Source: Actinocorallia populi (GTDB lineage Bacteria > Actinomycetota > Actinomycetes > Streptosporangiales > Streptosporangiaceae). Taken from it: DNA of 64,000 nucleotides. This document shows positions 9,204 to 38,854 of the stretch, piece by piece. The notes under the pieces were generated by a model. The model did not search any database. It was not told the origin of the DNA and was given only the letters and a program-made list of their open reading frames with translations. Both the position numbers and the translations under genes were made by a program. Each line of letters starts with the position of its first letter. Within the stretch, counting starts at the first letter, position 1. The DNA lies in contig NZ_PVZV01000005.1 of assembly GCF_002995495.1 (NCBI RefSeq), positions 248,001 through 312,000 on the forward strand, in the 5' to 3' direction.

Positions 9204-9240
9204 AGCCCGAGCCGGAGCGGCTCCGAAAAGCGGAGGCCGG

Positions 9241-9290: not shown

Positions 9291-9319
9291 CGTGCTCCGC
9301 CTCGAGCGGCCGGAGCACG

Positions 9320-10909: not shown

Positions 10910-10913
10910 CCCG

Positions 10914-10930
10914 CCTTTTGTGAGAAAAGG
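10914..10930 (+). terminator. Weak hairpin after the GH29 gene
   Basis: CCTTTT-GTGAG-AAAAGG forms a 6-bp stem five bases past the GH29 stop. A T-poor tail follows, so termination would be weak. Confidence 0.35.
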
Positions 10931-10983
10931 GGCGTTTAAGTCGTTTCATGTTTGTGGTGCGAAACGGGTGGTAGCTGAATGTA

Positions 10984-12850: not shown

Positions 12851-13962
12851 GATGCCCCATTCGCTGAGAGAAGTGGGGTGGGGGCCGTGTGCTCCGCGAG
12901 CACGTCCACGACGGCGCGCAGGCCGCCGGACGCCGCCGCGCGCTGGCGGGAGGCGCCGGTGCCCTCCTCGAGGAGGCGGCCGAACGCCGCCCGTACCCCG
13001 GCGAGGTCGCCGTTCTGCTCGAGGAACGGACGGGCGACGGCGAACAGTTCCGACACGAGCTCGCTCGCCGGGACCGGATGTTCCTTCCGCAGGTCCACGC
13101 CCTGGCCGTCCAGGCCGTAACGGGCGGCCGACCACACGGCGGCGGCGCACAGCTGCTCGTTCAGCCGCGGCGCCTCCCGGCCCGCGGCCAGCTCGGCCAG
13201 CGCGTGGTCCACCAGCGCGCGGGTGAGCGCGGCCTGCAGGACGGCGTCGTCGACCCTGGTCCCGACGTCCGCGACCCGGATCTCCACCGTCGGGTACGTG
13301 GGGGAGAGGCGGGCCAGCCAGAACGTCATGCGCTCGTCGACCAGCGCGCCGCACTCCACCAGCCGTTCGATCCGCCGGTCGTACTCGGCGGCGGAGCGGA
13401 AGTACGGCATGATGCCGGAGCCGGGGAACCGTGTCTGCTCGACCATCCGCCAGCTCGCGTAGCCGGTGTCGCGGCCCTGGTGGAAGGGCGAGTTCGCGGA
13501 CAGGGCCAGGAGCGTGGGCAGCCACGGGGCGAGGTGGTTGAGCACCGCGACGGCGGTCTCCCGGTCGGGGACGCCCACGTGCACATGGCAGCCGCAGCAC
13601 TGGTAGCCGCGCACGACCGCGGCGTACATGTCGGTGATCCGGGTGAAACGCGAGCCTTCGGCGGCCGGCGGGTCGGGGGAGGGCAGGACGGCGGTGCCGG
13701 AGGCCACCAGCCGCAGGCCCTCGGCCCGCGCGGCGGCGGCCAGGGCGAGGCGGCCTTCGGTGAGCTGGCGCCGCAGCTCGTCCAGCCCGGTGCAGACCCC
13801 GGTGGCGGACTCGACCTGCGTGGCCAGCAGCTCGCGGTGGAAGCCGGCGCCCGTGGCGGCGTCCGCCGGCCTGAGGCGGCCCAGCACGGACGAGGCCCGT
13901 GCGGCGGTGCCGCCGGACGCGGAGTCCACGAGCAGGAACTCCTCTTCGACCCCGACCGTCAT
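12847..13962 (-). CDS. GCS2-type carboxylate-amine (glutamate-cysteine) ligase
   Basis: A 371-residue ATP-dependent ligase of the YbdK/GCS2 family. It starts MTVGVEEEFLLVD, the conserved GVEEEF strand at the active site, and has the CGCHVHVGVPD metal/ATP segment (about residues 125-135), LSANSPFHQGRDTGYASWR and PTVEIRVADVGTRVDDA. Length is typical. Family members join glutamate (or another carboxylate) to an amine such as cysteine; the actual product is unknown. GGAGGGGG lies seven bases before the ATG. First gene of a two-gene operon with the diiron protein. Confidence 0.9.
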   Translation of the reverse strand: MTVGVEEEFLLVDSASGGTAARASSVLGRLRPADAATGAGFHRELLATQVESATGVCTGLDELRRQLTEGRLALAAAARAEGLRLVASGTAVLPSPDPPAAEGSRFTRITDMYAAVVRGYQCCGCHVHVGVPDRETAVAVLNHLAPWLPTLLALSANSPFHQGRDTGYASWRMVEQTRFPGSGIMPYFRSAAEYDRRIERLVECGALVDERMTFWLARLSPTYPTVEIRVADVGTRVDDAVLQAALTRALVDHALAELAAGREAPRLNEQLCAAAVWSAARYGLDGQGVDLRKEHPVPASELVSELFAVARPFLEQNGDLAGVRAAFGRLLEEGTGASRQRAAASGGLRAVVDVLAEHTAPTPLLSANGAS

Positions 13963-14082
13963 CGCAGACCCCCTCCATCCCGCCGTGCCCGGCGCTTCGG
14001 TCACCGAAACACACCCATGTTCCATTCGGGCTGTTTCGCGGGGTTTTGTATTGTCCCCCCACCTTTGCTGAGGTTTGACTAC

Positions 14083-14106
14083 TTACCCAGAAGTCCCGCG
14101 AAAATC
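14083..14106 (-). promoter_or_regulatory. Candidate sigma-B-type promoter for the GCS2-diiron operon
   Basis: On the minus strand GATT is followed after 14 bases by GGGTAA, close to the actinobacterial sigma-B/F pattern GNNT-N14-16-GGGTAY, about 120 bp upstream of the ligase start. The last base of the -10 differs from consensus. The whole region 13963-14211 is unusually AT-rich and serves two divergent genes. Confidence 0.4.
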
Positions 14107-14211
14107 GGCGATAAGTAAAAAAGTGATTTATCGCACGATGGGTTCATTGCCTAATAAAAGGGGCATCTTCTCTGTTTCGGTAAGCGAAGTCCGACCGCCA
14201 GCGAGGTGATC

Positions 14212-14472
14212 ATGTCCCGCAAGCACCTGTCCCGAGCCGGCCTGGATCCCAGCACGGCCGGAGGGCATCTCCCGCCCGCCCGCAGCGCCCTGACCCTCCG
14301 GCTGGTCCTGGCGTCCTTCGGACTGGTCAGCTCCCTCCTGGGTCTGGCCATCGTCCTGCTCCTCGGGCTCCCCTGGGGCTTGGTCCTCCTCTTCGCGCTG
14401 ATCGCCCTGACCGCGGCCGTCGACCTTTTCGTCGTCACCCGCCGCAGGCGCCGCGAACGCGCACTGCCGTGA
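14212..14472 (+). CDS. Small two-helix membrane protein (DUF6343-like)
   Basis: An 86-residue protein: a hydrophilic N-terminus, two membrane helices (about residues 29-50 and 54-74) and an Arg-rich cytoplasmic end (RRRRRERALP). It resembles short actinomycete membrane proteins of the DUF6343 kind, which begin the helix with RSALTLRLVLA. No function is known. The ATG is preceded by GAGG at a good distance; a GTG two codons earlier overlaps that site and is less likely. Divergent from the ligase operon; its end lies 6 bp from the convergent FMN-reductase gene. Confidence 0.75.
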   Translation: MSRKHLSRAGLDPSTAGGHLPPARSALTLRLVLASFGLVSSLLGLAIVLLLGLPWGLVLLFALIALTAAVDLFVVTRRRRRERALP

Positions 14473-14478
14473 GGCTCC

Positions 14479-15105
14479 TCAGCCGGGTGGAGGGGGGACG
14501 GGGCGGGAGTCCAGCGCGCGGGCGACCGCGACGAGGTTGGACGCCATGGCGCGGGCGGTCTTGGCCGACCAGTCGTGGCCGCGCGGGTCGTCGAGGTAGT
14601 CGGGCCCCGGACCCGGCCCCAGGTGCCAGTACGTCCACGCCTGGCCGGGAACGGTGTAGCCGATGTCCGCCAGAGCCCCGTTGATCTCGCTGATCACGTG
14701 GTGCGCGCCGTCCTCGTTGCCGGTGACGACCACGCCCGCCACCCGGTTGTAGGCGACGGGCCTCTCCTCGTCGTCGGTCTCCGACAACATCGCGTCCATC
14801 CGCTCCAGCACCCGCTGCGCCAGCGAGGAGGGCCGCCCCACCCAGGTGGGCGAGGCCACGACGAGGATCTGCGCGTTCAGCAGCATCTCGTGGACGCGGG
14901 GCCACTCGTCCCCCTCGCCCATCTCGGTCTTCACCCCCGGCGGCACGTTCAGGTCGGCCATCCGCACGAACTCGACGGACACCCCGCGTTCGCGCAGCCC
15001 GTCCGCGACGACCTCGGCCAGCGCCTGCGTGTTCGACGGCTCGGGAGACGGCTTCAACGTGCAGTTCAGGAACACCGCGCGCAGGGAGGATTCACTCTCG
15101 GACAT
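14479..15105 (-). CDS. Flavodoxin-fold NAD(P)H-dependent FMN reductase
   Basis: A 208-residue protein of the FMN_red/flavodoxin fold. An N-terminal strand (LRAVFLNCTLKPSPEPSNT) forms the phosphate-binding loop, and ILVVASPTWVGRPSSLAQRVLERMD is the flavin-contact segment found in WrbA- and SsuE-like enzymes. It probably reduces FMN or quinones in the cytoplasm. It is divergent from a TetR regulator with a clear operator between them, so it is likely that regulator's target. The C-terminus is proline-rich. Confidence 0.86.
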   Translation of the reverse strand: MSESESSLRAVFLNCTLKPSPEPSNTQALAEVVADGLRERGVSVEFVRMADLNVPPGVKTEMGEGDEWPRVHEMLLNAQILVVASPTWVGRPSSLAQRVLERMDAMLSETDDEERPVAYNRVAGVVVTGNEDGAHHVISEINGALADIGYTVPGQAWTYWHLGPGPGPDYLDDPRGHDWSAKTARAMASNLVAVARALDSRPVPPPPG

Positions 15106-15197
15106 GCCCTGGCCCCTGCCCCCGCTCCCGCACCCGAAACGCACGGCCCGGAGCGGCGCGCCTCACGAAACCCCCCCTTGAAAGGGCTTGATGGCTG

Positions 15198-15211
15198 AGT
15201 TGAACTCAACT
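15198..15211. promoter_or_regulatory. Operator palindrome for the TetR/FMN-reductase pair
   Basis: AGTTGA-AC-TCAACT, a perfect 6+6 dyad, lies 13 bp before the TetR start and about 93 bp before the divergent reductase. This is the usual place and form of a TetR-family operator controlling both genes. Confidence 0.65.
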
Positions 15212-15223
15212 TAATCTCGGGGC

Positions 15224-15850
15224 ATGTCGTCTCTGTCAGAACGCGGGACCCGGACCCGCCGGCGGTTGCTGGACGCCGCGGCCGAGGAGCTGATCCGCAC
15301 CGGTGAGGTCGAGGTGGCCGCGGTCGCCCGGCGGGCGGGAGTGAGCGTGGGGCTGCCCTACCGCTACTTCGGCACGCAGAGCGGCCTGGTCAGCGCACTG
15401 CTGGCGCGCTTCTACTACGGCGTCGACGCGCAGGTGTTCCGGAGCTTCCCGGGGACGACCTGGGCCGAGCGCGAACAGGCCAGGATGGCCGCACTCGTGC
15501 GGCACCTGTACGCCGACGCGATGGCGCCGGTGATCCTGGGCCAGCTGAGCCGGGACGTCCAGGCCGCCGAGGTCGAGGCCCGCTACATGCGCCTGGTCAT
15601 CGACCGCGCCGCCCGCAACCTCGCGGGCGCGCGCAGCCGGGGCGAGGCCGCCTGCGGCGGCGACCTGGAGCTCCTGGCGGCCAACCTCATGGGCGGCCTG
15701 CGCTCGGCCATCGGCCTGGCCCTCAACCGCACTCCCCGGCCCGATCCCGCGGCCCTGACCGACCACCTGTGGGGGTTCATGCGGGACATCACCCACCCGG
15801 TCCGAGTGCGCCGGGGCCCGGCTCATCCGGGCGCGGCGGACTCCTCGTAG
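15224..15850 (+). CDS. TetR-family transcriptional regulator
   Basis: A 208-residue regulator with an N-terminal TetR helix-turn-helix (RRRLLDAAAEELI..., VAAVARRAGVSVGLPYRYFG, about residues 12-55) and an effector-binding helical domain. It likely represses itself and the divergent flavin reductase through the AGTTGA dyad just upstream. The 3' end overlaps the convergent DUF1918 gene by 28 bp. The ligand is unknown. Confidence 0.9.
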   Translation: MSSLSERGTRTRRRLLDAAAEELIRTGEVEVAAVARRAGVSVGLPYRYFGTQSGLVSALLARFYYGVDAQVFRSFPGTTWAEREQARMAALVRHLYADAMAPVILGQLSRDVQAAEVEARYMRLVIDRAARNLAGARSRGEAACGGDLELLAANLMGGLRSAIGLALNRTPRPDPAALTDHLWGFMRDITHPVRVRRGPAHPGAADSS

Positions 15851-20407: not shown

Positions 20408-23128
20408 GTGGTCCTCCTCATCGCGTTGGCCCTGATGGGCGGGCTGACTCTGGCCGCCCCGCCGGTGAGCCGCAGGCTCGGGCGGGACGCGGGCTACGTG
20501 CTGGCCGCGGGTTTCGCCGCGGTGGCGCTGGTGCTTTCCACGGCGTCCTCGACGGTGCTGGCGGGGGGCGTGGTGTCGGTCTCCTGGTCGTGGATCCCCT
20601 CACTGGGCGTGTCGTTCACGCTCCGGATGGACGGGCTGTCGGCGCTCTTCTGCGTGCTGATCCTGGGGGTCGGCGCGCTGATCATGGCGTACTCGGCGCG
20701 TTACCTGCCCGAGGGAGGGCCGCACGGCGCCGTCTACTGCCTGATCACCGCTTTCGGCGGGTCGATGCTGGGGCTGGTGCTGGCCGGGGATCTGGTGCTG
20801 CTCTACGTGTTCTGGGAGCTGACGACCGTCGTCTCCTTCCTGCTGATCGGCATGTCCGGGGGCAAGGGGACGCGCCCGGCGGCCCGCGCGCTGCTGGTGA
20901 CGGGGGCGGGCGGGCTCGCCCTGCTGGGGGCGGTGGTGCTGCTGGTGGCCGTCGTGGGCAGCTCCGACCTCACGGCGGTGCTGGGGGCGCGGGAGGAGGT
21001 CGCGGCCTCCCCGCTGGGGCCTGCCATCGCGGCCCTGGTGATCATGGCCGCGTTCACCAAGTCGGGGCAGGTGCCCTTCCACTTCTGGCTGCCCGGCGCG
21101 ATGGTGGCGATCACTCCGGTGAGCGCCTACCTGCACGCGGCGACCATGGTGAAGGCCGGCATCTACCTGCTGATGCGGTTCTCGACGCTGTTCGCGGGGG
21201 AACCCGGCTGGACGCTGGTCCTGATGGGCTCCGGGCTGCTGACGGCGTTGCTGGCGTCGGTGTGGGCCCTGCTGGAACGCGACCTCAAGGCGCTGCTGGC
21301 CTACTCCACGGTGAGCCAGCTGGGGCTGCTGACCGCGTCGATCGGGGTGGGGACGTCGGTGGCGCTGGCGGCCGCCGTGCTGCACACCTTCGCCCACGCG
21401 CTGTTCAAGGCGACCCTGTTCATGCTGGTGGGCGTCATCGACCGGGAGGCGGGCAACCGCGACATCCACCAGCTGTCGGGGCTGATGCGCGTCATGCCGG
21501 TCACCGCCGCGCTGACCGGCCTGGCGGGGTTGTCGCTGGCGGGGGTGATCCCGATGATCGGCTTCGTCAGCAAGGAGTCGCTGTTCCAGGGGTTCACCGG
21601 GGCGCGGGTGGTGCCGGGCGCGGGCGCGGTGGCCGGGGTGCTCGCGGTGGTGATCTCGGCGTTGACCTTCGCCTACGCGATGCGGATCTGCTACGGGGTG
21701 TTCGCCGGGCCGACGCTGCAGCCGCGGTTGCGGGAGCCGTCGTGGTCCTTCCTGGCACCGGCCGCGGTGGCCGCGGTGGCGGGGCTGGTACTGGGACCGG
21801 CGGTGACGGTGCTGAACCCGCTGGTGCGGCAGGCGAGCCTGGACATCGAACCCTGGGCCGAACCGCCCCTCTTCGTGTTCTGGCACGGCTTCAGCATCGA
21901 ACTGTTCATGTCCGCCGCGACGATCGGGCTCGGGCTGGTGCTGTTCCTGACCCGGGACCGTGTCGACCGTGTGCTGCGCCGCTCCTCCTCGCTGGAGGGC
22001 GGGGAGCAGTTCGACCGGGGGTACGGGGCCCTGCTGAAGGCCGGCTCCGCGGTCGCCGCCTCCACGCACCGCGACTCGGCGGCGCCCTTCCTGGCGCGCC
22101 CTGTGGCGGGGGTGGTGCTCCTCGGCGGGGTGGGGGTCGTGACCTACGCGGGGTGGGGCGGGGCGCGGCCGCCGTCGGGACCGGCGGACTGGATCGTCCT
22201 GGCGCTGGTGGCGATGGTGGTCGCGGGGCTGGTGACGGCGCGTTCGGTGCTGGGCACGGTGGTGCTGGGCGGGACGGTGGGACTGCTCATGACGGTCTGG
22301 TTCCTGCGGGCCGGGGCGGTGGACGTGGCGTTGACGCTGCTGCTGGCGGAGATCATGACCGCGATCGTCGCGGCGTTCGTGTTGGGCCGGGAGCCGCGGT
22401 CCCTTCCCCGGACGGGCCGCCGCGGCGCCCTCGCGGCCGGGGGGCTGGCGGTGCTGGCGGGAGCCACGGCCGCGGCCGGGACCGCCGCGTTGACGGGGCG
22501 GCGCGAGATCTCGGAGGCCGGCGCGTTCTTCCTGCGGGCGGCGGAGCCGGAGACCGGCGGCCACAACGTCGTCAACACGGTGCTGGTCGACTTCCGGGGT
22601 TTCGACACCCTGGGGGAGATCAGCGTGCTGGCGGTGGTGGCGCTCGGGCTCTCCTCGGTGCGGGCGGGGCGGATGCGCAGCGGGAGCCGGGCGGAGCCGT
22701 ACCGCAGTCCGGTGCTGACACCTGCCTACCGGGTGCTGGCGCCGTTCATCGGGGTCCTCTCCGGCTACCTGTTCCTGCGCGGGCACCAGGAGCCCGGCGG
22801 CGGGTTCATCGCGGCCCTCGTCTCGGGGATCCTGGTGGCCTTCGGGGTGCTGATCGGCAGGGTGGGGGCGGCGGCGGGGACGGTGCGTCCGGGCGCCGCC
22901 TGGCTGCCGGGCTGGGGCCTGGCGGTCGCGGTGGCGGCGGGGTTGGCGGCCGCGGTGGCGGGAAGGGCCTTTCTCACTCCGCTCAAGGCGTCCTGGTCGG
23001 TGCCGCTGCTGGGTGTCCTGGAGTTCTCCTCTTCACTGCTGTTCGATTTCGGGGTGTATCTGGTGGTGCTGGGATTGATGGTCACCGCAGTCATCCGGCT
23101 GGGCGCCGAGGAAGAGCCCGTGGGATGA
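20408..23128 (+). CDS. mnhA: Mrp antiporter subunit A (fused A/B)
   Basis: A 906-residue polytopic protein, the largest Mrp Na+(K+)/H+ antiporter subunit and a homologue of complex I NuoL. The proton_antipo_M core (about residues 95-400) has FWELTTVVSFLLIG, GAMVAITPVSAYLHAATMVKAGIYLL and ALLAYSTVSQLGLL. A DUF4040 part (about 575-700) has LVDFRGFDTLGEISVL. The C-terminal about 150 residues are the MnhB domain (PFIGVLSGYLFLRGHQEPGGGFIAALVSG), fused as in many actinobacteria. GTG start with AGGGGAG upstream. First of six overlapping genes. Confidence 0.95.
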   Translation: MVLLIALALMGGLTLAAPPVSRRLGRDAGYVLAAGFAAVALVLSTASSTVLAGGVVSVSWSWIPSLGVSFTLRMDGLSALFCVLILGVGALIMAYSARYLPEGGPHGAVYCLITAFGGSMLGLVLAGDLVLLYVFWELTTVVSFLLIGMSGGKGTRPAARALLVTGAGGLALLGAVVLLVAVVGSSDLTAVLGAREEVAASPLGPAIAALVIMAAFTKSGQVPFHFWLPGAMVAITPVSAYLHAATMVKAGIYLLMRFSTLFAGEPGWTLVLMGSGLLTALLASVWALLERDLKALLAYSTVSQLGLLTASIGVGTSVALAAAVLHTFAHALFKATLFMLVGVIDREAGNRDIHQLSGLMRVMPVTAALTGLAGLSLAGVIPMIGFVSKESLFQGFTGARVVPGAGAVAGVLAVVISALTFAYAMRICYGVFAGPTLQPRLREPSWSFLAPAAVAAVAGLVLGPAVTVLNPLVRQASLDIEPWAEPPLFVFWHGFSIELFMSAATIGLGLVLFLTRDRVDRVLRRSSSLEGGEQFDRGYGALLKAGSAVAASTHRDSAAPFLARPVAGVVLLGGVGVVTYAGWGGARPPSGPADWIVLALVAMVVAGLVTARSVLGTVVLGGTVGLLMTVWFLRAGAVDVALTLLLAEIMTAIVAAFVLGREPRSLPRTGRRGALAAGGLAVLAGATAAAGTAALTGRREISEAGAFFLRAAEPETGGHNVVNTVLVDFRGFDTLGEISVLAVVALGLSSVRAGRMRSGSRAEPYRSPVLTPAYRVLAPFIGVLSGYLFLRGHQEPGGGFIAALVSGILVAFGVLIGRVGAAAGTVRPGAAWLPGWGLAVAVAAGLAAAVAGRAFLTPLKASWSVPLLGVLEFSSSLLFDFGVYLVVLGLMVTAVIRLGAEEEPVG

Positions 23129-23439
23129 GCGCCCCGCTGCTCGTGGGGGTGCTCGTGGCGGGCGGCGTCTTCCTCGTCCTGCTGCCCGGGATGGTGCGGA
23201 TCGTCTTCGGCTTCGTGCTGCTGGGGCACGCGGTGAACGTGCTGCTGGTGACCGCCGGAGGGACGGGCCGCACGCGGGCGCCGCTGATCGGCGAGGAGGA
23301 CCCCGCCCGGATGGCGGACCCCCTGCCGCAGGCGTTCGTGCTCACCGCGATCGTCATCACGTTCGGGACCACGGTGTACCTGCTGTCGATGATCCGCGCC
23401 CGGAGTCCGGGCGGGCGGTCCGAGGAGCCTTCCGGGTGA
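23125..23439 (+). CDS. mnhC: Mrp antiporter subunit C
   Basis: A 104-residue NuoK-like subunit with three membrane helices: LLVGVLVAGGVFLVLL, VFGFVLLGHAVNVLLVTAGG and PLPQAFVLTAIVITFGTTVYLL. The last contains the conserved PLPQALVLTAIVI element of MnhC. Its ATG overlaps the mnhA stop (ATGA) and its stop overlaps the mnhD start. Confidence 0.95.
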   Translation: MSAPLLVGVLVAGGVFLVLLPGMVRIVFGFVLLGHAVNVLLVTAGGTGRTRAPLIGEEDPARMADPLPQAFVLTAIVITFGTTVYLLSMIRARSPGGRSEEPSG

Positions 23440-24899
23440 GCGGCGTGGTGCTGGTCCTCCCGGTGGCGGTGCCGCTGCTGGCGGCGGGGCTGCTCTCGCT
23501 CCTGCCGGGCAAGTGGCCGCACCGCCTGGTCGGGGCGGGCGTCAACGCGGGGGTCCTGCTGGTGGGCGGGGTGCTGCTGGTGCGGGGCCTGGACGGCGGC
23601 ATCCCCACCGAGCGCATAGGGGGCTGGCCGGCGGGTTTCGCCATCGTGCTGGCGGCCGACCCCTTCAGCGCGCTCATGGTGTGCGCCAGCGCGGTGCTGG
23701 TGACGGCGGCCCTGTGCTTCGCCGCGGTGTGCGGCCAGGACGGGGACCGGCGGTTCACGCCCCTGGTGCTGGTCCTGGCGGCGGGGGTGTACGGAGCCCT
23801 GCTGACCGCCGACCTGTTCAACTTCTTCGTGTTCGTCGAGGTCATGCTGGTGCCGTCGTACGTGCTGCTGGTGCTGGGCAGCGGGCGGGACGCGGCGGCG
23901 GGCCGCATCTACGTCACGGTCGGCCTGCTGGCCTCGTCGGTGTTCCTGGCCGGGGTGGCGCTGGTGTACGGGGTGGCCGGGACCGTGAACCTCGGCGAAC
24001 TGGCGGGGGCGGCGGAACGGGGCCCGGCCTTCGCCCTGGCGGGGGCGGTGGTGCTGCTGGGGATGGCGGTGAAGGCGGCGGTGGTGCCCTTCCACGGCTG
24101 GCTGCCGCGCACGTACCCGCGGGCTCCGGCGGCGGTGTCGGTGCTGTTCGCGGGCCTGCTGACCAAGGTCGGCGTGTACGCGATCATACGGATCTACGCG
24201 GTGTTCTTCGGAGGGGCGCCGCAGTTCCGCTGGGTGGTCATGGCGGCGGCGCTGCTGACCATGGCGGTCGGGGTGCTGGGGGCGCTCGGCGAGCGGACCA
24301 TGCGGGACGTCCTGTCGTTCGACCTGGTGAGCCAGATCGGCTACGCCCTGTTCGGCCTGGCGCTGTTCACCGGCCTCGGGCTGACCGCGGCCGTCTTCTT
24401 CATGGTGCAGTACGTGCTGGTCAAGACCGTGCTGTTCATGTGCGCCGGGGCGGTGGAGCACGTCTACGGCTCGGACCGGCTCGACCTGCTGGGGGGCCTG
24501 CTGCGCAAGGAGCCGCTGCTCGCCGGGGTGTTCCTGGTGGCGGCCCTGTCGCTGGCCGGCATCCCCCCGCTGTCGGGCTTCGTGGCGAAGCTGGGACTGC
24601 TCCGGGCGGCGGTGGCGGAGGAGGAGTACCTGCCGGCGGCCGTCGCGGTCGTGACCAGCCTGCTCACGCTGGCCGCCATGCTCAAGGTGTGGAGCCGGGT
24701 CTTCTGGAGCAGGCCGTCGCCGGTGAGCGCGCTGCCCGGGTGGGCGGGGCCGCGGCCGGTGCTGCTGGCGCCCGCCGTGGTGCTGGCCGTTCCGTCGGTG
24801 GCCTTCGGGTTGGGGGCGGAACCCCTGTGGCGGGTGGCGGAGACGGCGGCCGGGGGGCTGCTGGACGTCTCGGCGTACGTGCGGGCGGTGACCCGGTGA
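23436..24899 (+). CDS. mnhD: Mrp antiporter subunit D
   Basis: A 487-residue antiporter-like subunit homologous to NuoM/NuoN with about 14 helices. Key segments are LFNFFVFVEVMLVPSYVLLV (with the conserved glutamate), MAVKAAVVPFHGWLPRTYPR with the channel lysine, and FDLVSQIGYALFGLALF. It is thought to carry protons in exchange with Na+ or K+. GTG start overlapping the mnhC stop (GTGA). Confidence 0.95.
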   Translation: MSGVVLVLPVAVPLLAAGLLSLLPGKWPHRLVGAGVNAGVLLVGGVLLVRGLDGGIPTERIGGWPAGFAIVLAADPFSALMVCASAVLVTAALCFAAVCGQDGDRRFTPLVLVLAAGVYGALLTADLFNFFVFVEVMLVPSYVLLVLGSGRDAAAGRIYVTVGLLASSVFLAGVALVYGVAGTVNLGELAGAAERGPAFALAGAVVLLGMAVKAAVVPFHGWLPRTYPRAPAAVSVLFAGLLTKVGVYAIIRIYAVFFGGAPQFRWVVMAAALLTMAVGVLGALGERTMRDVLSFDLVSQIGYALFGLALFTGLGLTAAVFFMVQYVLVKTVLFMCAGAVEHVYGSDRLDLLGGLLRKEPLLAGVFLVAALSLAGIPPLSGFVAKLGLLRAAVAEEEYLPAAVAVVTSLLTLAAMLKVWSRVFWSRPSPVSALPGWAGPRPVLLAPAVVLAVPSVAFGLGAEPLWRVAETAAGGLLDVSAYVRAVTR

Positions 24900-25270
24900 A
24901 GGCGGGGGGCCTGCTGCGGCGGACGGTGCTGCGCGGACGGCGGACGGCGGCGTTCGCCTTCTTCTACGCCCGGTTCTTCCTCCGGTCGAACGTGGAGGTC
25001 GTGGTGGAGGTCATCACCCCGGGCAGCGGGCTGGCACCGGCGGTCGTGGAGCTGCGGTTGCGGGCGCGCACGGTGCTGGAGGTCGCGACGATGGCGCACC
25101 TGATCACCCTGTCGCCCGGCGCGCTGGTGCTGGAGGCGCGCGCCGATCCGCCGGTGCTGTACGTGCACGGGATGCACCTGGCCGATCCGGAGGCCTTCCT
25201 GGCCGAGCTCGGTGAACTGGAGGAACGGCTGCTCCGGGTGATGCGGCCGGTGGGAGAGGAGGTCCCGTGA
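24896..25270 (+). CDS. mnhE: Mrp antiporter subunit E (short form)
   Basis: A 124-residue MnhE. The family core is clear: FFYARFFLRSNVEVVVEVITPG, VATMAHLITLSPGALVLE and PPVLYVHGMHLADPEAF. Family members usually have about 160 residues with two N-terminal membrane helices; here that part is missing and the GTG start, overlapping the mnhD stop, leaves only a basic N-terminus (VKAGGLLRRTVLRGRRTA). The shortening is not caused by a visible frameshift. Confidence 0.88.
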   Translation: MKAGGLLRRTVLRGRRTAAFAFFYARFFLRSNVEVVVEVITPGSGLAPAVVELRLRARTVLEVATMAHLITLSPGALVLEARADPPVLYVHGMHLADPEAFLAELGELEERLLRVMRPVGEEVP

Positions 25271-25524
25271 TGGTGGTCGACGCCATGCTCGTGGTGCTCG
25301 CGGTGGTGGCGGCCGTGGTCGTCTGGCGCCTGGCGGCCGGGCCGACCGACGCCGACCGGCTGGTCGCCCTGGACCTGGGGTTCGTGGTGTTCGTGGCGGT
25401 GGTCGCGCTGCTGGCGGTGCGGTTGCGCACTCCCGCGATGTTCGTGCTGGTCCTGTGCGCGACGCTGGTGGGCTTCCTGGCCACGGTGGCGGCCTCCCAC
25501 CTGCTGGAACGGTCGTCGTCATGA
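25270..25524 (+). CDS. mnhF: Mrp antiporter subunit F
   Basis: An 84-residue subunit with three helices and the conserved GPTDADRLVALDL element after the first. It resembles MrpF, which also moves bile salts in some bacteria. ATG overlaps the mnhE stop (TGATG); a GTG one codon earlier is possible. Confidence 0.93.
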   Translation: MVVDAMLVVLAVVAAVVVWRLAAGPTDADRLVALDLGFVVFVAVVALLAVRLRTPAMFVLVLCATLVGFLATVAASHLLERSSS

Positions 25525-25868
25525 CGGTGCTGACGGTGGCGGGGAACGTTCTGGTGGTGCTGGGGACGGGGCTGATCGCGATAGGGACGCTGGGCCTGGT
25601 GCGGCTGCCCGACTCCTACAACCGGGCCAACGCGACGGCCAAGGCCGCGGCCACGGGAGTGGTGTGCGTGCTCCTGGGCGCCCTGGCGCTGATGCCCGGC
25701 CCGCTGACCGCCTGTTTCCTGCTCCTGGGAGTGGCGCTGCAACTGCTGACCACACCGTTCGGGGCGTACACGGTGGGCCATGCGGCTTACCGTTCCGGTG
25801 CTCCGCTGGCCGCCTCCACGCACCGTGACGACCTGCGTGAGGCGCTGCGTGAACGCGGTGAGGAGTGA
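25521..25868 (+). CDS. mnhG: Mrp antiporter subunit G
   Basis: A 115-residue subunit with three helices and the family element GLVRLPDSYNRANATAKAAA after the first. It completes the A/B-C-D-E-F-G set, so the operon should form a working antiporter for pH and Na+ homeostasis. ATG overlaps the mnhF stop. Its end is 5 bp from a convergent TetR gene. Confidence 0.93.
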   Translation: MTVLTVAGNVLVVLGTGLIAIGTLGLVRLPDSYNRANATAKAAATGVVCVLLGALALMPGPLTACFLLLGVALQLLTTPFGAYTVGHAAYRSGAPLAASTHRDDLREALRERGEE

Positions 25869-31687: not shown

Positions 31688-32698
31688 ATGAAGCGAGCGG
31701 CGACCGGGGCCCTGCTGGGGCTGGCGATCGGGGACGCCATGGGGTTCCCCACGGAGTTCGACGACATGGCGCGGATCGCCGCCAAGGTCGGCCCCTGGCG
31801 GGAGATGCCGCTGCCGCTGGCCTCGGGCCGCGCGTACGTCACCGATGACACGCAGATGACGCTGGCGCTGGGGGAGGGCCTCGTCGAGGCGCTGGCGGCG
31901 GGACCGCTGACGGCGGCCCGGATGGAACCGCCGGTGCGCGAGCACTTCGTCCGCTGGTGGCGGTCGCCGGAGAACAACCGGGCGCCGGGGATGACGTGCC
32001 TGCGGGCCTGCGAGGGCCTGAGCCGCGGCGGCGACTGGCGGGCGGCGAGCCAGGTCGGCTCCAAGGGCTGCGGGGCGAACATGCGGGTCGCGCCGCTGGG
32101 GCTGATCCCGGGGCTGGACCCCGACCAGCGCGCGGGGGCGTCGCAGCTGCAGTCGGCCCTCACCCACGGGCATCCCACCGCGCTGGCCGCCAGCGACCTG
32201 ACTGCCTACACCGTCCGGCTGCTGGCCGAAGGCACGGACCTGTCCGGGCTGCTCGGAAGGCTCCGCGCATACGCGCACGAGAACCGCCGGGTCTACCGGG
32301 CGGACTGGCTCGGCGGCCTGGCGGAGCGCGCGCACGACCACGACCGCGTCTCCTTCATCGCCCGCGGCTGGGACGAGTGCCTGGCCGTGCTGGACCGCCT
32401 CGAGGCCGCGCTGGCGGCGCCCGACGTCGAGGCCGACCCGTGCCTGGCGACGGGCGCGGGCTGGATCGCCGAGGAGGCCTTCGCCACCGGCCTGTACTGC
32501 TTCCTCCTGCTGCCCGGCGACCCTCCGGCGGCGGTGCGCCGCGCGGCCTGCTCCTCGGGGGACTCCGACTCCATCGCCGCCCTGGCCGGAGCCTTCGCCG
32601 GCGCCCACCACGGCGCGGCCGCCTGGCCCGGGGAGTGGGCGGAGCGCATCGAGTACCGCGACCGCCTGCTCGCCCTCGGCACCGCCTGGGATGGCTGA
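31688..32698 (+). CDS. ADP-ribosylglycohydrolase family protein
   Basis: A 336-residue protein of the ARH/DraG family, which removes ADP-ribose from proteins, nucleotides or other targets. It has the metal-binding segments GDAMGFPTEF (about residues 16-25), YVTDDTQMTLAL (about 54-65) and GDSDSIAALAGAFAGA (about 290-305), with all key Asp/Thr residues present. It lies 56 bp upstream of the Wadjet-like genes on the same strand, so they may be co-transcribed. Confidence 0.9.
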   Translation: MKRAATGALLGLAIGDAMGFPTEFDDMARIAAKVGPWREMPLPLASGRAYVTDDTQMTLALGEGLVEALAAGPLTAARMEPPVREHFVRWWRSPENNRAPGMTCLRACEGLSRGGDWRAASQVGSKGCGANMRVAPLGLIPGLDPDQRAGASQLQSALTHGHPTALAASDLTAYTVRLLAEGTDLSGLLGRLRAYAHENRRVYRADWLGGLAERAHDHDRVSFIARGWDECLAVLDRLEAALAAPDVEADPCLATGAGWIAEEAFATGLYCFLLLPGDPPAAVRRAACSSGDSDSIAALAGAFAGAHHGAAAWPGEWAERIEYRDRLLALGTAWDG

Positions 32699-32754
32699 AT
32701 TCTGGGGTTTTGTTGGCGTAGCATTTCGGGCTGGCGGCGGGGAGGGGAAGCGCG

Positions 32755-34287
32755 GTGGCAGGGTTGCCTCGGGTGCCGGGCGAGATGTTCCGGTTCACCA
32801 CCACGGAGAAGGCCGAGCTGCACACCGCCGTGTTGTGGCTCTTCGGGGAGACCGGCGAGCGGATGCCCACGGCCCTGACCGTCGAGCAGGTGCTGGAGCG
32901 GCTGCGGGCGGCGGGGTGGTACCTCGCGCTGGAGGCCGGAGAGCTGAGCGGCGTCCTCGACGGGCTGGCGCAGTGGGGACTGCTGGACGTGGTGTTCAAC
33001 CACTCCGGCCACTTCGCGACGGCCGAGGAGTACGAACGCAAGAACCTGCAGTACTCGCTGACCAAGCGCGGAGAAGCCGCGTTCGCGGGAGTGCAGCACG
33101 CCCTGTCGGTGCTGAGCTCTTCTGGAGCGTTGCAGACGGCGGTTCTGACCGCGATCGCAGACCGGCTCAACGAGCTCGGGACGCTGCTGGACGACGCCGA
33201 CAGAAGCCGGGACCGGCGCATCTTCGCAGCACTGCAAGAGCTCGAAGGCCACCTGGACGCGCTGCGGACGAACACCCGCGGCTTCAACGGCGAGCTGCAA
33301 CGGCTGATGCGCGTGGAAGGAACGGACCTCGCGACCTTCCACGAGGTGAAACGTGCGACCGTCGGCTACCTCCAAGAGTTCGTCACCGACCTGGAAGCCC
33401 GCGCCGACACCGTCGTCCGAGCGCTGGAGACCGTAGACGCGCACGGCGTCAACACCCTGCACAGACGCGCCCTCGCGGGAGCCGAACTTCCTCCCGTACA
33501 CGGAACCGACCCGTCTGCGGCCTGGCTCAACGCACGCGCCGCCCAATGGAAGCGCCTGCGTGACTGGTTCGCCCCCGAAAGCGGCGACACCCCGTATGTG
33601 ATGCAGCTGCACGACGTGGCTCGGCACGCGATCGTCTCGCTGCTCCAGGTGCTCGAGCGCATCACCGACTCGCGGCGGCACTCTTCGAGCATGGCGGGCG
33701 ACTTCCGGACGCTCGCGCGCCGCTTCGCCGCCGCGCCCTCCGAAGCCGAAGCCCACCGGCTGTGGGCCGTGGCGTTCGGGCTCGGCGCCTCCCAGCACGC
33801 CCACCTCGGCCACGAGGACGCCGAGGCCATCCCCGCCGGCATCCCGTGGGGGCAGGCGGCTCCCGTCCGCGTGTCGGCCCTGCTGCGCGAAAAAGGCAAG
33901 ACCGAGCGCATGGGAAGGCCCGGACGCGTCCGCGACGTCACCGCGATACGGGCCGCGCGAAGAGCACGCGCCGAACAGGAACGCGCAGAGCTCGAAGCGG
34001 CCTGGACGATGCTCTCCACCCAGGGGCCCGTCCGCCTGTCGTCCTTCGGCCGCCTCGACCACGGCACCTTCGGGCGGCTGCTGGAGCTCCTGGGACGCGC
34101 CCTGGCCGAACGCGCGGACTCCGCAGGAGTGCGTTGCGCCGTCACGTCCGACGGGAGGACCGAGATCATCCTGTACCCGCCCGCAGACGGGGCGACGGCC
34201 GAGCTGCGCACGTCCGAAGGGCGGCTCCTCGGACCGGACTACGCCGTCGACATCCGGGTCTCCGGCAGGACGGCGGCGAGCGCGTGA
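32755..34287 (+). CDS. Wadjet-like JetA subunit (DUF2397, TIGR02677)
   Basis: A 510-residue helical protein of the TIGR02677/DUF2397 family, the kleisin-like component of the SbcC-type Wadjet systems that restrict plasmids. It starts MFRFTTTEKAELHTAVLWLF (family start), with winged-helix and coiled regions (NELGTLLDDADRSRDRRIF). Region 33120-33220 has slightly lower GC than its surroundings. GTG with GGAGGGGAAG upstream. The next gene overlaps (GTGA). Assignment to the DUF2397/2398/2399 (type III) branch is from family knowledge. Confidence 0.85.
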   Translation: MAGLPRVPGEMFRFTTTEKAELHTAVLWLFGETGERMPTALTVEQVLERLRAAGWYLALEAGELSGVLDGLAQWGLLDVVFNHSGHFATAEEYERKNLQYSLTKRGEAAFAGVQHALSVLSSSGALQTAVLTAIADRLNELGTLLDDADRSRDRRIFAALQELEGHLDALRTNTRGFNGELQRLMRVEGTDLATFHEVKRATVGYLQEFVTDLEARADTVVRALETVDAHGVNTLHRRALAGAELPPVHGTDPSAAWLNARAAQWKRLRDWFAPESGDTPYVMQLHDVARHAIVSLLQVLERITDSRRHSSSMAGDFRTLARRFAAAPSEAEAHRLWAVAFGLGASQHAHLGHEDAEAIPAGIPWGQAAPVRVSALLREKGKTERMGRPGRVRDVTAIRAARRARAEQERAELEAAWTMLSTQGPVRLSSFGRLDHGTFGRLLELLGRALAERADSAGVRCAVTSDGRTEIILYPPADGATAELRTSEGRLLGPDYAVDIRVSGRTAASA

Positions 34288-35477
34288 GCCGATCCGGTAA
34301 CCAGCTCGCACGCCGGGAACGGGAGGAGATCGCCCGCGCGATCAGGCTGCTGCTGCGCGACCCGCTGATCTCCGTCCACCTCGACCCGGCGGGGTTCGAC
34401 CTGGTGCGCAAACGCCGCCAGCCGCTCGCCGCGTGGTTCGACTACTACTGCGGCTGGCGGCTCGTCGTGGAGCCCCGGCACGGCTACGCGCGCCTCATCA
34501 AGGTCCGCGGGGACGCCGGCTCCGCGCGCCCCGCCATGCGCCGCAGAGGCGGCCGCATCCCCTTCGACCGCCGCCGCTACACCCTGTTCTGCCTGGCCTG
34601 CGCCGAACTGCTCGCCACTCCCGTCACGACCATCGGGATGCTCGCCCGCAGCGTCGTGCAGGCCGCCGCGGCCGAACCGGACGTCCCGGAGTTCGACCCG
34701 CTCCGCGCCGACGAGCGCTCGGCCTTCGTGGACGCGCTGAAGCTCCTGGAGCACTACGGCGTGATCGCCGCGACGGACGGCATGACCGACGCCTATCTCA
34801 AGGACGCCGAGGCCAAGGTCCTCTACCGGGTGGACACCAGCCGGATCACCCGCCTCCTCGCCACCCCCGTCCCCCCGTCGCGGACCGGGGACGCCGACGA
34901 CGGCTGGCCCGACCCCGCCGACCTGGCCGTGGAGAGCCGCTACGGCGACACGGACGGCGGCGAGCGCACCGGCACGCAGCGCGCCCTGTGGACCCGCCAC
35001 TCCCTCATCCGCAGGCTGCTGGACGACCCCGTCGTCTACCGCAAGGAGCTCACCTCCGCCCAGCGGGAGTACCTGGCCTCGCCCACCGGACGCAGAACCG
35101 CCCGCGAGGCCGCCGAACGGGCCGGTTTCGTGCTGGAGGAACGCGCCGAGGGCCTGCTGCTGGTCGACCCCGAGGGACTGTCCACCGGGGAGAGGTTCCC
35201 CGACGACGGCAGCCCCGCCAAGGTCGCCGCACTCCTGCTCCTTGACCTCCTGGCCACGCACGGGCCCCTGTCGTCGATCCGCCTCAAGCAGGAGATCGAC
35301 GGCATCCTCGAGCGTTTCCCCGGCTGGGCCAAGGCCTACCAGTCCACGGGCGGCCCGGCCCGCCTCCTCGACGACGCCCTCGACGTCCTGACGCTCTTCG
35401 GCCTCGTCCACCGCTCCGAGGGCATGACCCTCTCCCTGCCCGCAGCCGCCCGCTACCGCGTAGCCCTGGAAACCTGA
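34284..35477 (+). CDS. Wadjet-like JetB subunit (DUF2398, TIGR02678)
   Basis: A 397-residue protein of TIGR02678/DUF2398, the second SMC-associated winged-helix subunit. It starts with AIRLLLRDPLISVHLDPAGFDLVRKRRQPLAAWF and has IPFDRRRYTLFCLACAELL and LALLLLDLLA-type helices. GTG overlaps the jetA stop; its own stop overlaps the next start in a TGATG. Expected to bridge JetA and the ATPase. Confidence 0.85.
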   Translation: MSRSGNQLARREREEIARAIRLLLRDPLISVHLDPAGFDLVRKRRQPLAAWFDYYCGWRLVVEPRHGYARLIKVRGDAGSARPAMRRRGGRIPFDRRRYTLFCLACAELLATPVTTIGMLARSVVQAAAAEPDVPEFDPLRADERSAFVDALKLLEHYGVIAATDGMTDAYLKDAEAKVLYRVDTSRITRLLATPVPPSRTGDADDGWPDPADLAVESRYGDTDGGERTGTQRALWTRHSLIRRLLDDPVVYRKELTSAQREYLASPTGRRTAREAAERAGFVLEERAEGLLLVDPEGLSTGERFPDDGSPAKVAALLLLDLLATHGPLSSIRLKQEIDGILERFPGWAKAYQSTGGPARLLDDALDVLTLFGLVHRSEGMTLSLPAAARYRVALET

Positions 35478-38400
35478 TGACAGAACCCCGCTGGATGCCG
35501 ACCCGCGCCGGAATTCTCAACGTCTGGCGCTACTACGACGAGGTCTTCGAGTTCCACAAGGGGCGGCTGCTGCTGCGCGGCCCCAACGGGAGCGGCAAGT
35601 CCAAGATGCTGGAGCTGCTGCTGCCCTTCGTGCTGGACGGGAGCCTCAAGGCGAGCCGTCTGTCGACGTTCGGGGGGACCGAACGCACGATGCACTGGAA
35701 CCTCATGGGGGACGGGGCGACGGGCACGACCCGTGCGGGTTACGTCTGGGTGGAGTTCGGGCACACGGACGGGCGCTGGTTCACCTGCGGGGTGCGCCTT
35801 CAGGCCACCGCGCACACCACCACCGTCACGCCGACGTACTTCATCACCGGACTGAGGGTCGGGGACGGGCTCTCCCTGACCACCGAGACCCAGCAGCCGC
35901 TCACCCGCGCGCAGCTGGAGGCCGCGATCGGTGTGCACGGGGCCGTTTACAGCGCGGCCGACGACTACCGGACGCGGGTGCGGCAGACGCTCTACCAGGA
36001 GCTCAGCGAAGCGCGTTACGACTCCCTCCTGGCCGCGCTGCGCCAGCTCCGGACACCGAAACTCTCCGAGCGGCTCGACCCGGGTCTGCTGTCGGAGCTG
36101 CTGTCCAGCGCGCTGCCGCCACTCGGCGAGGGAGAGATCCACGAGATAGCCGAGGGTTTCGAACGGCTCGACCGGCAGCGCACCGACTTGCGCGACCTGG
36201 ACGAACACGTGGAAGAGGCCGCGAGGCTCGCAGCCAGACAGAAGACCTACGCCCAGCGGGTTCTGCGCGCCGCCTCGCAGACCGTTCTCGGTGCCGTCGC
36301 GACCACGGAGACCGCCGAGAACGAGCTGAAGGCCGGACGCGAGGCCCTGCGAGCGGCGGAGGAGGAACTGGAGAAGGTCACCGCCGCGCACGTCGAGACC
36401 GACAACCTCGTCAAACGGCTCGACGCCAAAGTCGAAGGGCTCAAGGAGAGCGAGGCCTACCGGGCGGGCCACGACCTGTCACGGCTTCGGGCCGAGGCGG
36501 TCGAAGTGGCGCGGCTGGCGGATGAGCAGCACAGGAGAGCCGAGGAAGCGGCCCGGGAGGCGGCGGAGAAGGAGAAGGCAGCCGAGCAGGCCCGCCAGGA
36601 GCTGTCCGAGGCCGAGAACCTGCTCACGCAGGCCGAGGACGATGCCGCGCGCATAGCCCAGCACTCCGGCCTGGAGACCGTCTACGAGGAACTCCGCAGA
36701 ACTCCGGGCGTAGCGCAGGCGCGGACGCTCCTGCGCGCGGCGATCAGCACCCGCGCCACCCGGATCCGCGAGGCGGGAGCCCAGGTCCGGGCGCACGCGC
36801 ACACCGTCAGGCTGCGTACCGAGGCCGAACACGACCGCGACGAGGCGCTGGAACGCCTGGCCTCCGCCAAGGAGATCGTCGCCCTGGCCCGGACGGCACG
36901 CGACGAGCTGGGCAACGACCTGGCCGCCGCCTACGCCGTCTGGGCGGAGAAGTGCACGCTGCTGGAGCTCGACGGACCCGCGCTCACCGCCGCGGCCGAG
37001 GACGCCGCCGCCGTGGAGGCACTCGTCGGAGCCGCACGCGACAGCGCGCTGGACCGCCTGGCCACCGGCAGGATCGACACGTTCCTCGCCGCGGCGAAGA
37101 CGGGGCCCGTCTCCTTCTCCCTGGCCGACGAGCGCAAGTCCTGTGACGTCGAGCTGGCCGTCCGGCCCGACCGGGGACCGTTCGAAGCGGCGGTACGGGA
37201 ACTCGATCGGGCCGAGCACACGCTGGCCGACCGCGAGGACGCCGTCAGCGCCCGACAGGAGCGCGTCAAGGCACGCGAGAAGGAAGTCGCGGCGGCCTTC
37301 CGCAAGCTCGGCTACGTCGGCGCCAAACTCGGCCTGCCCACCTCGCAGTTCGAGCTCGACCTGCTGGACGCGGCCCGCAACAAGGCAGACGAGGCACTGA
37401 ACGTCTGGCTCGACGCGCGGGAGCGCGCCCGTGCCGCCGCCGGGCACCGGGACACCGCGCAGCAGACCGCAGAGGCCTACCGCGCCCTGGCCGAGCGGGC
37501 CGCGGCCGAAGCCGAGGAGACGGCCGCCAGGGCCGAGGCGCTGGCGGAACGCCATGCCGCCGTCGACACCGCGCTGAACGCCTCCCACCGGGAGATCCTG
37601 CAGAGCATCCAGGAGTCGCTGGAAGAGCGCCGCGCCGGCCGCGCGCGGCTGAAGGAACTGGCCGAGCGCCGGACCGCGCTCAGGGTCTCCCTCGGGGTGC
37701 TGTCCAACGAGGCCGCCGCCCTGGAGGCCCGCCGCGCCGAGACCGCGCGGGCACGCGACCGGGCCGTGGCGCGCTTCCACCGCCTGACCCGGGGCCACCT
37801 GCTCACCGACGCCCGCCTCGACGTGTCGCCGCCCGGCACGGACCCCGTGGCGGTCGCGGCGGCGGCGCGGAGCGTCGTCGAACGGCTGCCGGGGACACCG
37901 CACGAGCCCAGGAGCGTCCGCGAGGCCGAGACCGCGCTCCAGGAGGCCTACCACCACGCCAGGGACGCCCTGCAGACCCGCGCCGACCTGGAGTTGACCC
38001 CCGACGACGACGTGCGGATCCTCACCGCCTCGGTCGGCGGCATCCGGCTCGGCGTCGCCGCCTTCGAGCAGGCCCTGCGCGCCGAGCGCGACGAGCGCAG
38101 CGCCGACATCAACGAATCCGAGCACGAGCTGTTCGACCGGACCCTGGCCGGGGACGTCCGCAGGCACCTGGCCGACCGGATCCGGCAGGCCGCCGAGCTG
38201 GTGGCGGGCATGAACGAGCGGCTGCGCCGGGTGCGCACGGCCTCCCGGGTCGCGGTCGAGCTGGTCTGGCAGGTCGATCCGCGCCGGGCCGCCGACACCC
38301 TGGAGGCGCGCGGGCTGCTGCTGCGCGACCCGGGGGAGCTGGACGAGAAGGGCCGCGCCGTCCTGCACCGCTTCTTCCGCGGCCTGCTCGACGAGGCGCG

Positions 38401-38854
38401 GGCCGACGACACCGCGGCGTCCTGGGAGGAGCAGCTCCTGAAGGTGCTGGACTACACCGCCTGGCACCAGTTCGTCGTCCGGCTCGACCGGGGCGACGGC
38501 AGGGGCTGGCACGAGCTCACCCGCAAGCTGCACGGCGCGCTGTCGGGCGGGGAGAAGGCCATCGCCCTGCACCTCCCGCTGTTCGCGGCGGTGGCGGCCC
38601 ACTACCGGAGCGATCCGGGCTGCCCCCGCTTCATCCTGCTCGACGAGGTCTTCGTCGGCGTCGACCGCGCCAACCGGGGCCAGGTCTTCCAGCTGCTGGT
38701 GGACCTCGGCCTGGACCTGGTGCTCACCTCCGACCACGAGTGGTGCGAGTACCGCGAGCTCGACGGCATCGCCGTCCACGTCCTGCAGACCGGAGACGGC
38801 GACGACGCCGTCACCACCACCAGGTTCGTCTGGGACGGCGAGCGGACGGGATGA
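35477..38854 (+). CDS. Wadjet-like JetC SMC/SbcC ATPase (TIGR02680)
   Basis: A 1125-residue SMC-like ATPase. Walker A is GPNGSGKSK (about residues 35-43), the signature LSGGEKAIALHLP is near 1020, and Walker B with catalytic glutamate is FILLDEVFVGVD (about 1050). Between them lies a long Ala/Glu/Arg-rich coiled coil (about 260-950). Intact ATPase motifs suggest a working loop-extruding motor like other Wadjet JetC proteins. It ends 2 bp from a convergent small gene. The usual JetD nuclease gene does not follow. Confidence 0.92.
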   Translation: MTEPRWMPTRAGILNVWRYYDEVFEFHKGRLLLRGPNGSGKSKMLELLLPFVLDGSLKASRLSTFGGTERTMHWNLMGDGATGTTRAGYVWVEFGHTDGRWFTCGVRLQATAHTTTVTPTYFITGLRVGDGLSLTTETQQPLTRAQLEAAIGVHGAVYSAADDYRTRVRQTLYQELSEARYDSLLAALRQLRTPKLSERLDPGLLSELLSSALPPLGEGEIHEIAEGFERLDRQRTDLRDLDEHVEEAARLAARQKTYAQRVLRAASQTVLGAVATTETAENELKAGREALRAAEEELEKVTAAHVETDNLVKRLDAKVEGLKESEAYRAGHDLSRLRAEAVEVARLADEQHRRAEEAAREAAEKEKAAEQARQELSEAENLLTQAEDDAARIAQHSGLETVYEELRRTPGVAQARTLLRAAISTRATRIREAGAQVRAHAHTVRLRTEAEHDRDEALERLASAKEIVALARTARDELGNDLAAAYAVWAEKCTLLELDGPALTAAAEDAAAVEALVGAARDSALDRLATGRIDTFLAAAKTGPVSFSLADERKSCDVELAVRPDRGPFEAAVRELDRAEHTLADREDAVSARQERVKAREKEVAAAFRKLGYVGAKLGLPTSQFELDLLDAARNKADEALNVWLDARERARAAAGHRDTAQQTAEAYRALAERAAAEAEETAARAEALAERHAAVDTALNASHREILQSIQESLEERRAGRARLKELAERRTALRVSLGVLSNEAAALEARRAETARARDRAVARFHRLTRGHLLTDARLDVSPPGTDPVAVAAAARSVVERLPGTPHEPRSVREAETALQEAYHHARDALQTRADLELTPDDDVRILTASVGGIRLGVAAFEQALRAERDERSADINESEHELFDRTLAGDVRRHLADRIRQAAELVAGMNERLRRVRTASRVAVELVWQVDPRRAADTLEARGLLLRDPGELDEKGRAVLHRFFRGLLDEARADDTAASWEEQLLKVLDYTAWHQFVVRLDRGDGRGWHELTRKLHGALSGGEKAIALHLPLFAAVAAHYRSDPGCPRFILLDEVFVGVDRANRGQVFQLLVDLGLDLVLTSDHEWCEYRELDGIAVHVLQTGDGDDAVTTTRFVWDGERTG

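Follow-up and report, generated by a model that had tools for sequence, protein, structure and literature searches.

The 64-kb stretch of Actinocorallia populi DNA that we analyzed (64,000 nucleotides, referred to here as the window) carries a compact gene cluster, jetABC, that consists of three overlapping open frames extending over 6.1 kb (positions 32755-38854) and is preceded by a gene of a different kind. A sequence-only reading of this region had taken the three overlapping genes for components of a Wadjet-type plasmid-restriction system. The genes are arranged as follows.

31688..32698, plus strand: ADP-ribosylglycohydrolase (PF03747, 218.5 bits), ending 56 bp upstream of jetA
32755..34287, plus strand: JetA (kleisin), DUF2397/TIGR02677, 510 aa (TIGR02677 462.2 bits; PF09660 454.6 bits; PADLOC JetA2 737.4 bits)
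34284..35477, plus strand: JetB (KITE), DUF2398/TIGR02678, 397 aa (TIGR02678 299.1 bits; PF09661 329.7 bits; PADLOC JetB2 403.6 bits)
35477..38854, plus strand: JetC (SMC ATPase), TIGR02680, 1125 aa, hinge absent (TIGR02680 792.8 bits; PADLOC JetC2 995.2 bits)

JetA, JetB and JetC all pass the curated NCBIfam cut-offs (165.85 for TIGR02677, 124.65 for TIGR02678 and 462.85 for TIGR02680) by a wide margin, and the assignment to Wadjet-type components is thereby upheld. The jetB frame starts with a GTG codon that overlaps the jetA stop, and JetC also matches the Pfam SbcC-like Walker B domain. The best PADLOC models are JetA2, JetB2 and JetC2, i.e., the type II Wadjet set, and they score far above their type I counterparts (JetC2 995.2 versus JetC1 52.3 bits; JetB2 403.6 versus JetB1 23.7 bits). 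The JetC residues that we take to be the Walker A, signature and Walker B motifs do not vary across 24 aligned rows, the window protein among them, and the earlier description of these motifs as intact is thus correct. Outside a deletion in JetC described below, the window proteins retain 95-96% of the sites that are invariant in all other rows (123 of 129 in JetA, 94 of 98 in JetB and 275 of 287 in JetC, with 38 gapped JetC sites uncounted); in this comparison, the partial loci L076 and L083, whose JetD state is unjudgeable, are labelled as JetD-carrying. Unique changes are about twice as numerous in the window lineage as in its relatives from Nonomuraea.

A kleisin-KITE-SMC layout without a nuclease is also that of the MukBEF/MksBEF line, to which the operon could belong instead of being a Wadjet derivative. 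While the nuclease-free layout agrees, membership in the MukB/MksB line is not borne out by the model scores just given, which place the type II Wadjet models far ahead, nor by the many nearest relatives that carry JetD; the best fold match of JetC, the Wadjet-II JetC protein of Neobacillus vireti, points in the same direction. We regard a MukBEF/MksBEF origin as extremely improbable. The SMC complex MksBEF of Pseudomonas aeruginosa possesses a hinge.

The ADP-ribosylglycohydrolase gene had been placed 56 bp ahead of the operon, and both its identity and this distance are confirmed. A tblastn search (E 1e-6) detected no counterpart in 47 related loci, six of which lack JetA and the DNA upstream of it. 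Owing to this absence from related loci, we treat the gene as a neighbor of the operon; its candidacy as a new subunit was rejected, and it probably lies outside the system. At the other end, the ATPase gene had been described as abutting an unrelated gene. An open frame does lie 1 bp past jetC (low end at 38856), but it is convergent and was not chosen by a GC3-based gene caller; the next family-matched gene begins at 39267 (DUF5753). Neither an Rfam family at gathering score nor a tRNA is present in the window. Elsewhere in it, positions 20408-25868 show a strong AT skew (down to -0.38), and the genes in this part resemble antiporter-type membrane genes when their translations are read by eye; the skew probably reflects the codon bias of hydrophobic proteins.

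The sequence-only reading had also noted that the JetD nuclease is missing beside the ATPase gene, and a JetD model run against all six frames detected none in the entire window. Across the source genome (8.25 Mb in 25 contigs, rated 100% complete), neither TIGR02679 nor JetD_C/DUF2220 gave a match at E<=1, and the single match of DUF2399 (E 1.74) is not credible; hence, no JetD was found elsewhere in this genome. The 2.5 kb behind the window jetC contain no JetD remnant at E 0.05 with filters off; the same search conducted with 22 sets yielded a sole match, in L147 (E 0.0067). Two genomes of the same genus each contain one JetC and one JetD adjoining it. On its contig C1, the source genome harbors another JetABC set of type II, with matches to DUF2397, DUF2398 and the SbcC Walker B domain; the SMC gene of this set is located as follows.

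L009 (G000:C1:134000-153000), 8464-12993, minus strand: JetC of the second set, about 1509 aa, hinge present

No JetD was detected in the 19 kb surrounding this second set. A convergent open frame of 130 aa without a Pfam match is present 43 bp behind its jetC.

We surveyed 297 sampled genomes of the family and found TIGR02680 (E<=1e-30) in 211 and DUF2399 (E<=1e-5) in 162 of them; both were present in 149 genomes, and JetC only in 62. The latter number should not be read as the number of losses within the window's type, since in at least 12 of these genomes (G012, G019, G024, G041, G043, G044, G055, G057, G064, G080, G102, and G131) a JetC match comes from a different, chromosomal JetABC set. 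TIGR02679 exceeded its cut-off in none of the 19 JetD-less genomes tested among the 62, versus all five JetD-carrying controls; weak matches below the cut-off were seen in G097, G147, and G268.

A search with the window JetC recovered 47 loci, 26 with JetD and 15 without, while six that end in or right after JetC were unjudgeable. All 15 JetD-less loci have sequence past JetC, although upstream sequence is short or lacking in five; among the 26 JetD-carrying loci, three have JetD at a position other than directly behind JetC. JetABC without JetD therefore recurs in 15 of 41 judgeable loci, and this state is not rare among relatives, a point that the sequence-only reading had missed. Thirteen of the 15 JetD-less loci belong to Nonomuraea or to the Nonomuraea-nested [Actinomadura] parvosata, and 12 of these 13 loci have their next called gene no more than about 215 bp past the end of the JetC match. 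In several of them, it is one of the sugar-kinase or ABC-transporter genes found after JetD in relatives. No common replacement gene for JetD was seen behind JetC in those JetD-less relatives whose gene calls were read; Pfam searches covered the L067 ABC transporter, the L147 GMC oxidoreductase and the L153 protein. The last of these is encoded by a gene of 256 aa (L153:3962-4732, minus strand) that has no Pfam match and stands at the JetD position; the rest of the locus is for the most part 94-96% identical to L162, which carries JetD.

On a JetC tree of 68 rows, the JetD state requires 14 changes, at least 12 of which are forced by well supported branches; this is a quick tree with long-branch warnings, and its JetD-less rows L127, L138, and L146 are not closely related to the window's type. 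Near-identical neighbors differ in JetD (L147/L158, L153/L162, L150 and L151 versus L159 and L161, and L049/L058). In the last of these pairs, about 1.4 kb including JetD are gone from L049 relative to L058, with 85 bp in their place. Two relatives retain broken pieces of the nuclease gene.

L167:10334-10673 and L168:2080-2196: fragmentary JetD downstream of JetC; in one of the two loci the distance is about 10 kb

In G097, three JetD pieces (69-94% identity) are found about 10 kb behind JetC, beyond DNA that is not shared by L159, and G023 contains a piece resembling the first 41 residues of JetD (39 aligned, 82% identity). The patchy distribution of JetD on the tree and the remnants in two relatives support the loss of JetD, one of the possibilities that the sequence-only reading had listed. 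In L080 (positions 14047-15655; Protofrankia coriariae), JetD matches occur in two overlapping frames, possibly the result of a frameshift or a sequencing error.

Are the remaining three genes maintained once the nuclease is gone? We calculated pairwise dN/dS values (Nei-Gojobori) for JetD-less and JetD-carrying pairs; these pairs are partly non-independent, and in some JetD-less pairs the two members possibly lost JetD separately. For the JetD-less pairs, the values were 0.07-0.51 for JetA (n=7), 0.17-0.43 for JetB (n=9) and 0.25-0.45 for JetC (n=9), and 18 of these 25 values fall between 0.20 and 0.35; the pair L064-L072 is high (0.43-0.51). The JetD-carrying pairs (12 for each protein) gave 0.08-0.25, 0.12-0.31 and 0.20-0.31, respectively. 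Mean values for JetD-less versus JetD-carrying pairs were 0.27 versus 0.16 for JetA, 0.30 versus 0.21 for JetB and 0.31 versus 0.26 for JetC, a sign of a certain general relaxation in the JetD-less relatives. A colinear post-JetC junction is shown only for L067-L070 and L051-L068. In the first of these pairs, the junction sequence is common over 350 nt, which indicates one loss, so that the divergence of the two loci postdates it. Their dN/dS values are 0.27 (JetA), 0.25 (JetB) and 0.34 (JetC). At the neutral rate, each lineage should have collected about 22 nonsense changes, yet jetABC consists of single open frames in both; the genes compared were chosen as open frames, so that the absence of stops is partly by construction and their full length shows intactness. 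For L051-L068, the value is 0.15 for the C-terminal part of JetC. Low dN/dS values and frames that stayed open after the loss indicate that JetABC is under purifying selection without JetD in these lineages. The suggestion that the set works without cutting is thus supported for the relatives; this support does not extend to the window copy.

Selection has not remained equally strict on the three subunits. At sites fixed in JetD carriers, the JetD-less rows depart from the fixed residue at 89 of 1488 JetA cells, 26 of 928 JetB cells and 51 of 3600 JetC cells (counts that omit the partial loci L076 and L083), whereas JetD-carrying Nonomuraea treated by the same measure in a leave-one-out manner do so at 1 of 1675, 6 of 1050 and 4 of 3244, respectively. 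L064 and L072 supply about half of the changed JetA cells (21 and 27 substitutions); L062, L063, L067, and L070 contribute 6-16 each, L047 two and L065 one. Among JetD-carrying rows, the deep branch L075 has 21 JetA substitutions and L071 has five. The kleisin JetA is the most relaxed subunit in the JetD-less relatives. In Corynebacterium glutamicum, the nuclease is bound by the kleisin subunit (PMC10123090), and a relaxation centered on JetA fits the real loss of a partner. The changes in the window proteins overlap with sites changed in JetD-less kin, weakly in JetA (P 0.084) and JetB (P 0.064) and more strongly in JetC (8 of 20, P 1.4e-4), an overlap on which we do not lean since mutable sites would give the same pattern.

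These data also bear on the proposal that the set borrows a nuclease. Our sequence searches recognise JetD families only, and an unrelated TOPRIM protein or another enzyme could in principle replace JetD in trans. However, TIGR02679 and DUF2220 remain without a match at E<=1 in the source genome and DUF2399 without a credible one, the JetD-less relatives examined show no common replacement behind JetC, and JetA has changed at positions that are fixed in relatives with JetD. The relaxation of JetA favors a real loss over a borrowed JetD, and we consider a nuclease acting in trans to be very improbable.

Even apart from its missing JetD, the set is not intact, a point that the sequence-only reading had missed. 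The motifs of the ATPase head are present, but JetC as a whole is incomplete and comprises 1125 aa compared with at least 1328 aligned residues in the other JetC frames that span the model. The TIGR02680 match on the window JetC falls into two stretches that leave profile positions 523-771 unmatched, and an alignment with 33 relatives shows that residues 545-755 of the relative L057 are absent from it. The deletion is in frame; about 211 residues, corresponding to the hinge and flanking coiled coil, are replaced by a short linker.

37067..37129, plus strand: linker in JetC, about 21 codons (residues ~531-551) in place of about 211 residues (from alignment and models; limits approximate)

An AlphaFold2 model of L057 residues 480-820 (mean pLDDT 88.8) places a globular hinge at about 572-715 between two arm helices; the deletion thus removes the hinge together with about 27 and about 40 arm residues. 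In the AlphaFold2 model of the window JetC (mean pLDDT 80.5, pTM 0.47), a helix stops at residue 530, the pLDDT falls below 50 at 532-547, and a long helix resumes at 549, with no domain between the two helices that flank the linker. A cysteine is found at residue 556 in the helix after the linker. Among solved structures, this model is matched best by Wadjet-II JetC of N. vireti (E 1e-48; TM 0.41 relative to the query).

We built a hinge HMM from 33 relatives; it matches 112 of 114 unique JetC frames, and both misses are the window gene. Hinge loss as a feature of a clade was rejected on this result, and among the JetC frames compared no relative has the same deletion. A hinge remnant in the linker was rejected as well, its score being not clearly above that of shuffled sequences (108 of 2000 score as high). 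In 26 genomes chosen mostly for two JetC matches or weak best matches, the profile match mostly breaks at about 973-1038 and not at the hinge; the exceptions are G107 (503-659), G167 (702-1037) and G111 (at 883), along with contig ends in G005 and G013.

The deletion rests on one assembly and lies in a GC-rich region where no relative shows the same, as would be the case if it were an assembly error and JetC were in truth full length, with JetD still missing. However, no such gap occurs in the other JetC frames, which come from many assemblies. Moreover, the junction contains about 21 residues of other sequence in place of a plain end-to-end join, and these residues do not score clearly above shuffles as hinge. 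We judge an assembly error to be improbable. The window set thus comprises JetA, JetB and JetC with an ATPase head, while both JetD and the JetC hinge are absent; for this reason, we call it a derivative of Wadjet type II, not a member.

We consider it fairly probable that the window carries a type II Wadjet operon that lost JetD, in one of many apparently independent losses, and whose JetC further lost its hinge. In the absence of JetD, the complex should not be able to cut plasmids. In the JetD-less relatives, a non-cutting role of JetABC is likely; the complex may be kept as a DNA motor or clamp that engages in chromosome work in the manner of MksBEF/MukBEF, or in the compaction and silencing of plasmids. 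In the window copy, JetA, JetB and the JetC heads might still assemble and hydrolyse ATP. With the two JetC arms no longer joined at the hinge, loop extrusion by a closed ring would be unlikely, and the complex would represent either a DNA clamp made of heads and kleisin or an early stage of decay. For this copy, we rate the two readings, reduced clamp and decaying relic, as about equally likely.

There is close to an even chance that the operon is a dying relic, in which JetD was lost first, constraint fell, the hinge was lost, and the three genes are now drifting. The hinge is missing from the window copy alone, and the hinge loss and the doubled number of unique changes imply that this copy may be non-functional. 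The other JetABC set of the genome is likewise JetD-less, and decay is visible in other JetD-less sets: L093, one of the 15 JetD-less loci above, contains JetB and JetC in pieces, while L155 (G107), one of ten judgeable JetD-less C1-type loci (L147, L148, and L150-L157), retains a JetC, with neither JetA nor JetB matched anywhere in 15.3 kb. Yet the three overlapping frames of the window operon are open over their entire length, nearly all otherwise invariant sites outside the deletion are kept, and the deletion itself preserved the frame while it removed the hinge with adjoining arm residues. A farther-reaching proposition, namely that type II systems repeatedly yield nuclease-free SMC complexes kept for a non-cutting job and that the window operon encodes a natural hingeless, core-only clamp or motor, is rather unlikely as a whole.

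The closest solved system is nvJET of Neobacillus vireti (type II JetABCD; PDB 9QE0/9QE1). The window JetC is homologous to its SMC subunit over the head and adjoining arms, and 9QE0 is the best match of the window JetC model; homology of JetA to 9QE0 was established via the relative L057. Unlike the situation for nvJET, no JetD was found in the source genome, and the window JetC is without the hinge and about 200 residues. MksBEF of P. aeruginosa, which is related to type I Wadjet, likewise combines kleisin, KITE and SMC subunits without a nuclease (PMC7083940); it belongs to a different subfamily, whereas the loss reported here is seen many times in type II.

Nuclease loss is already known for type I Wadjet. 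In Stenotrophomonas maltophilia, Wadjet I is present in 82% of the strains studied, and the commoner variant is without jetD; its JetA, JetB and JetC proteins are more than 95% alike, and it was judged probably inactive (PMC11680222, in the passages available). This case concerns type I, and the same passages contain neither a selection test nor a hinge loss (PMC11680222). An SMC without a hinge was met in print, as far as the sources could be seen, only as the engineered Wadjet-I core ecJET(core), which has no elbow-to-hinge segment: it cut DNA only when its arms were held by a disulfide, and reduction abolished cutting (PMC12647877). While ecJET(core) was built in the laboratory, with JetD present and a disulfide engineered in, the window protein occurs naturally, retains more of the arm and has no JetD. 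Since the engineered core cut only with cross-linked arms, the window complex should not extrude unless its arms are otherwise joined. In the literature searched, with subscription papers mostly outside its reach, we found no report of type II JetD loss or of a natural hingeless SMC; as far as these searches reach, the recurrent loss of JetD in type II systems with measured selection and a natural hingeless SMC are new.

These observations bear on how SMC motors shift between chromosome upkeep and plasmid defence. The step of nuclease loss is visible many times, with near-identical pairs that differ in JetD; the measurable relaxation of JetA marks a candidate docking surface for JetD, and relatives that keep the motor without the cutter suggest that the motor may serve some purpose independent of cleavage. 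With a natural hingeless SMC, it could be tested whether the hinge is needed beyond obstacle bypass and ring closure.

The chromosomal JetABC set mentioned above was observed, with similar surroundings, in 18 stretches belonging to other genera of the family (L127-L137 and L139-L145). As judged from gene calls and matches, it consists of a short JetA, JetB and a JetC of about 1450 aa (e.g., L140:3767-12548), and most copies have a gene of about 700 aa behind JetC, followed by MaoC-type genes and a probable murB; no JetD match was found in any of the 18 stretches. L140, the only stretch whose families were checked, gives matches to DUF2397 (C-terminal part), DUF2398 and JetC2 as well as to a RecF/SMC-like ATPase. 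This chromosomal set has the appearance of a type II derivative that is free of a nuclease and has been maintained by descent. A further locus, L146:2667-10154, contains a full-length JetA (DUF2397 over 64-543), JetB and JetC together with a RecF-like ATPase gene on the opposite strand, and is possibly an intermediate of the chromosomal set.
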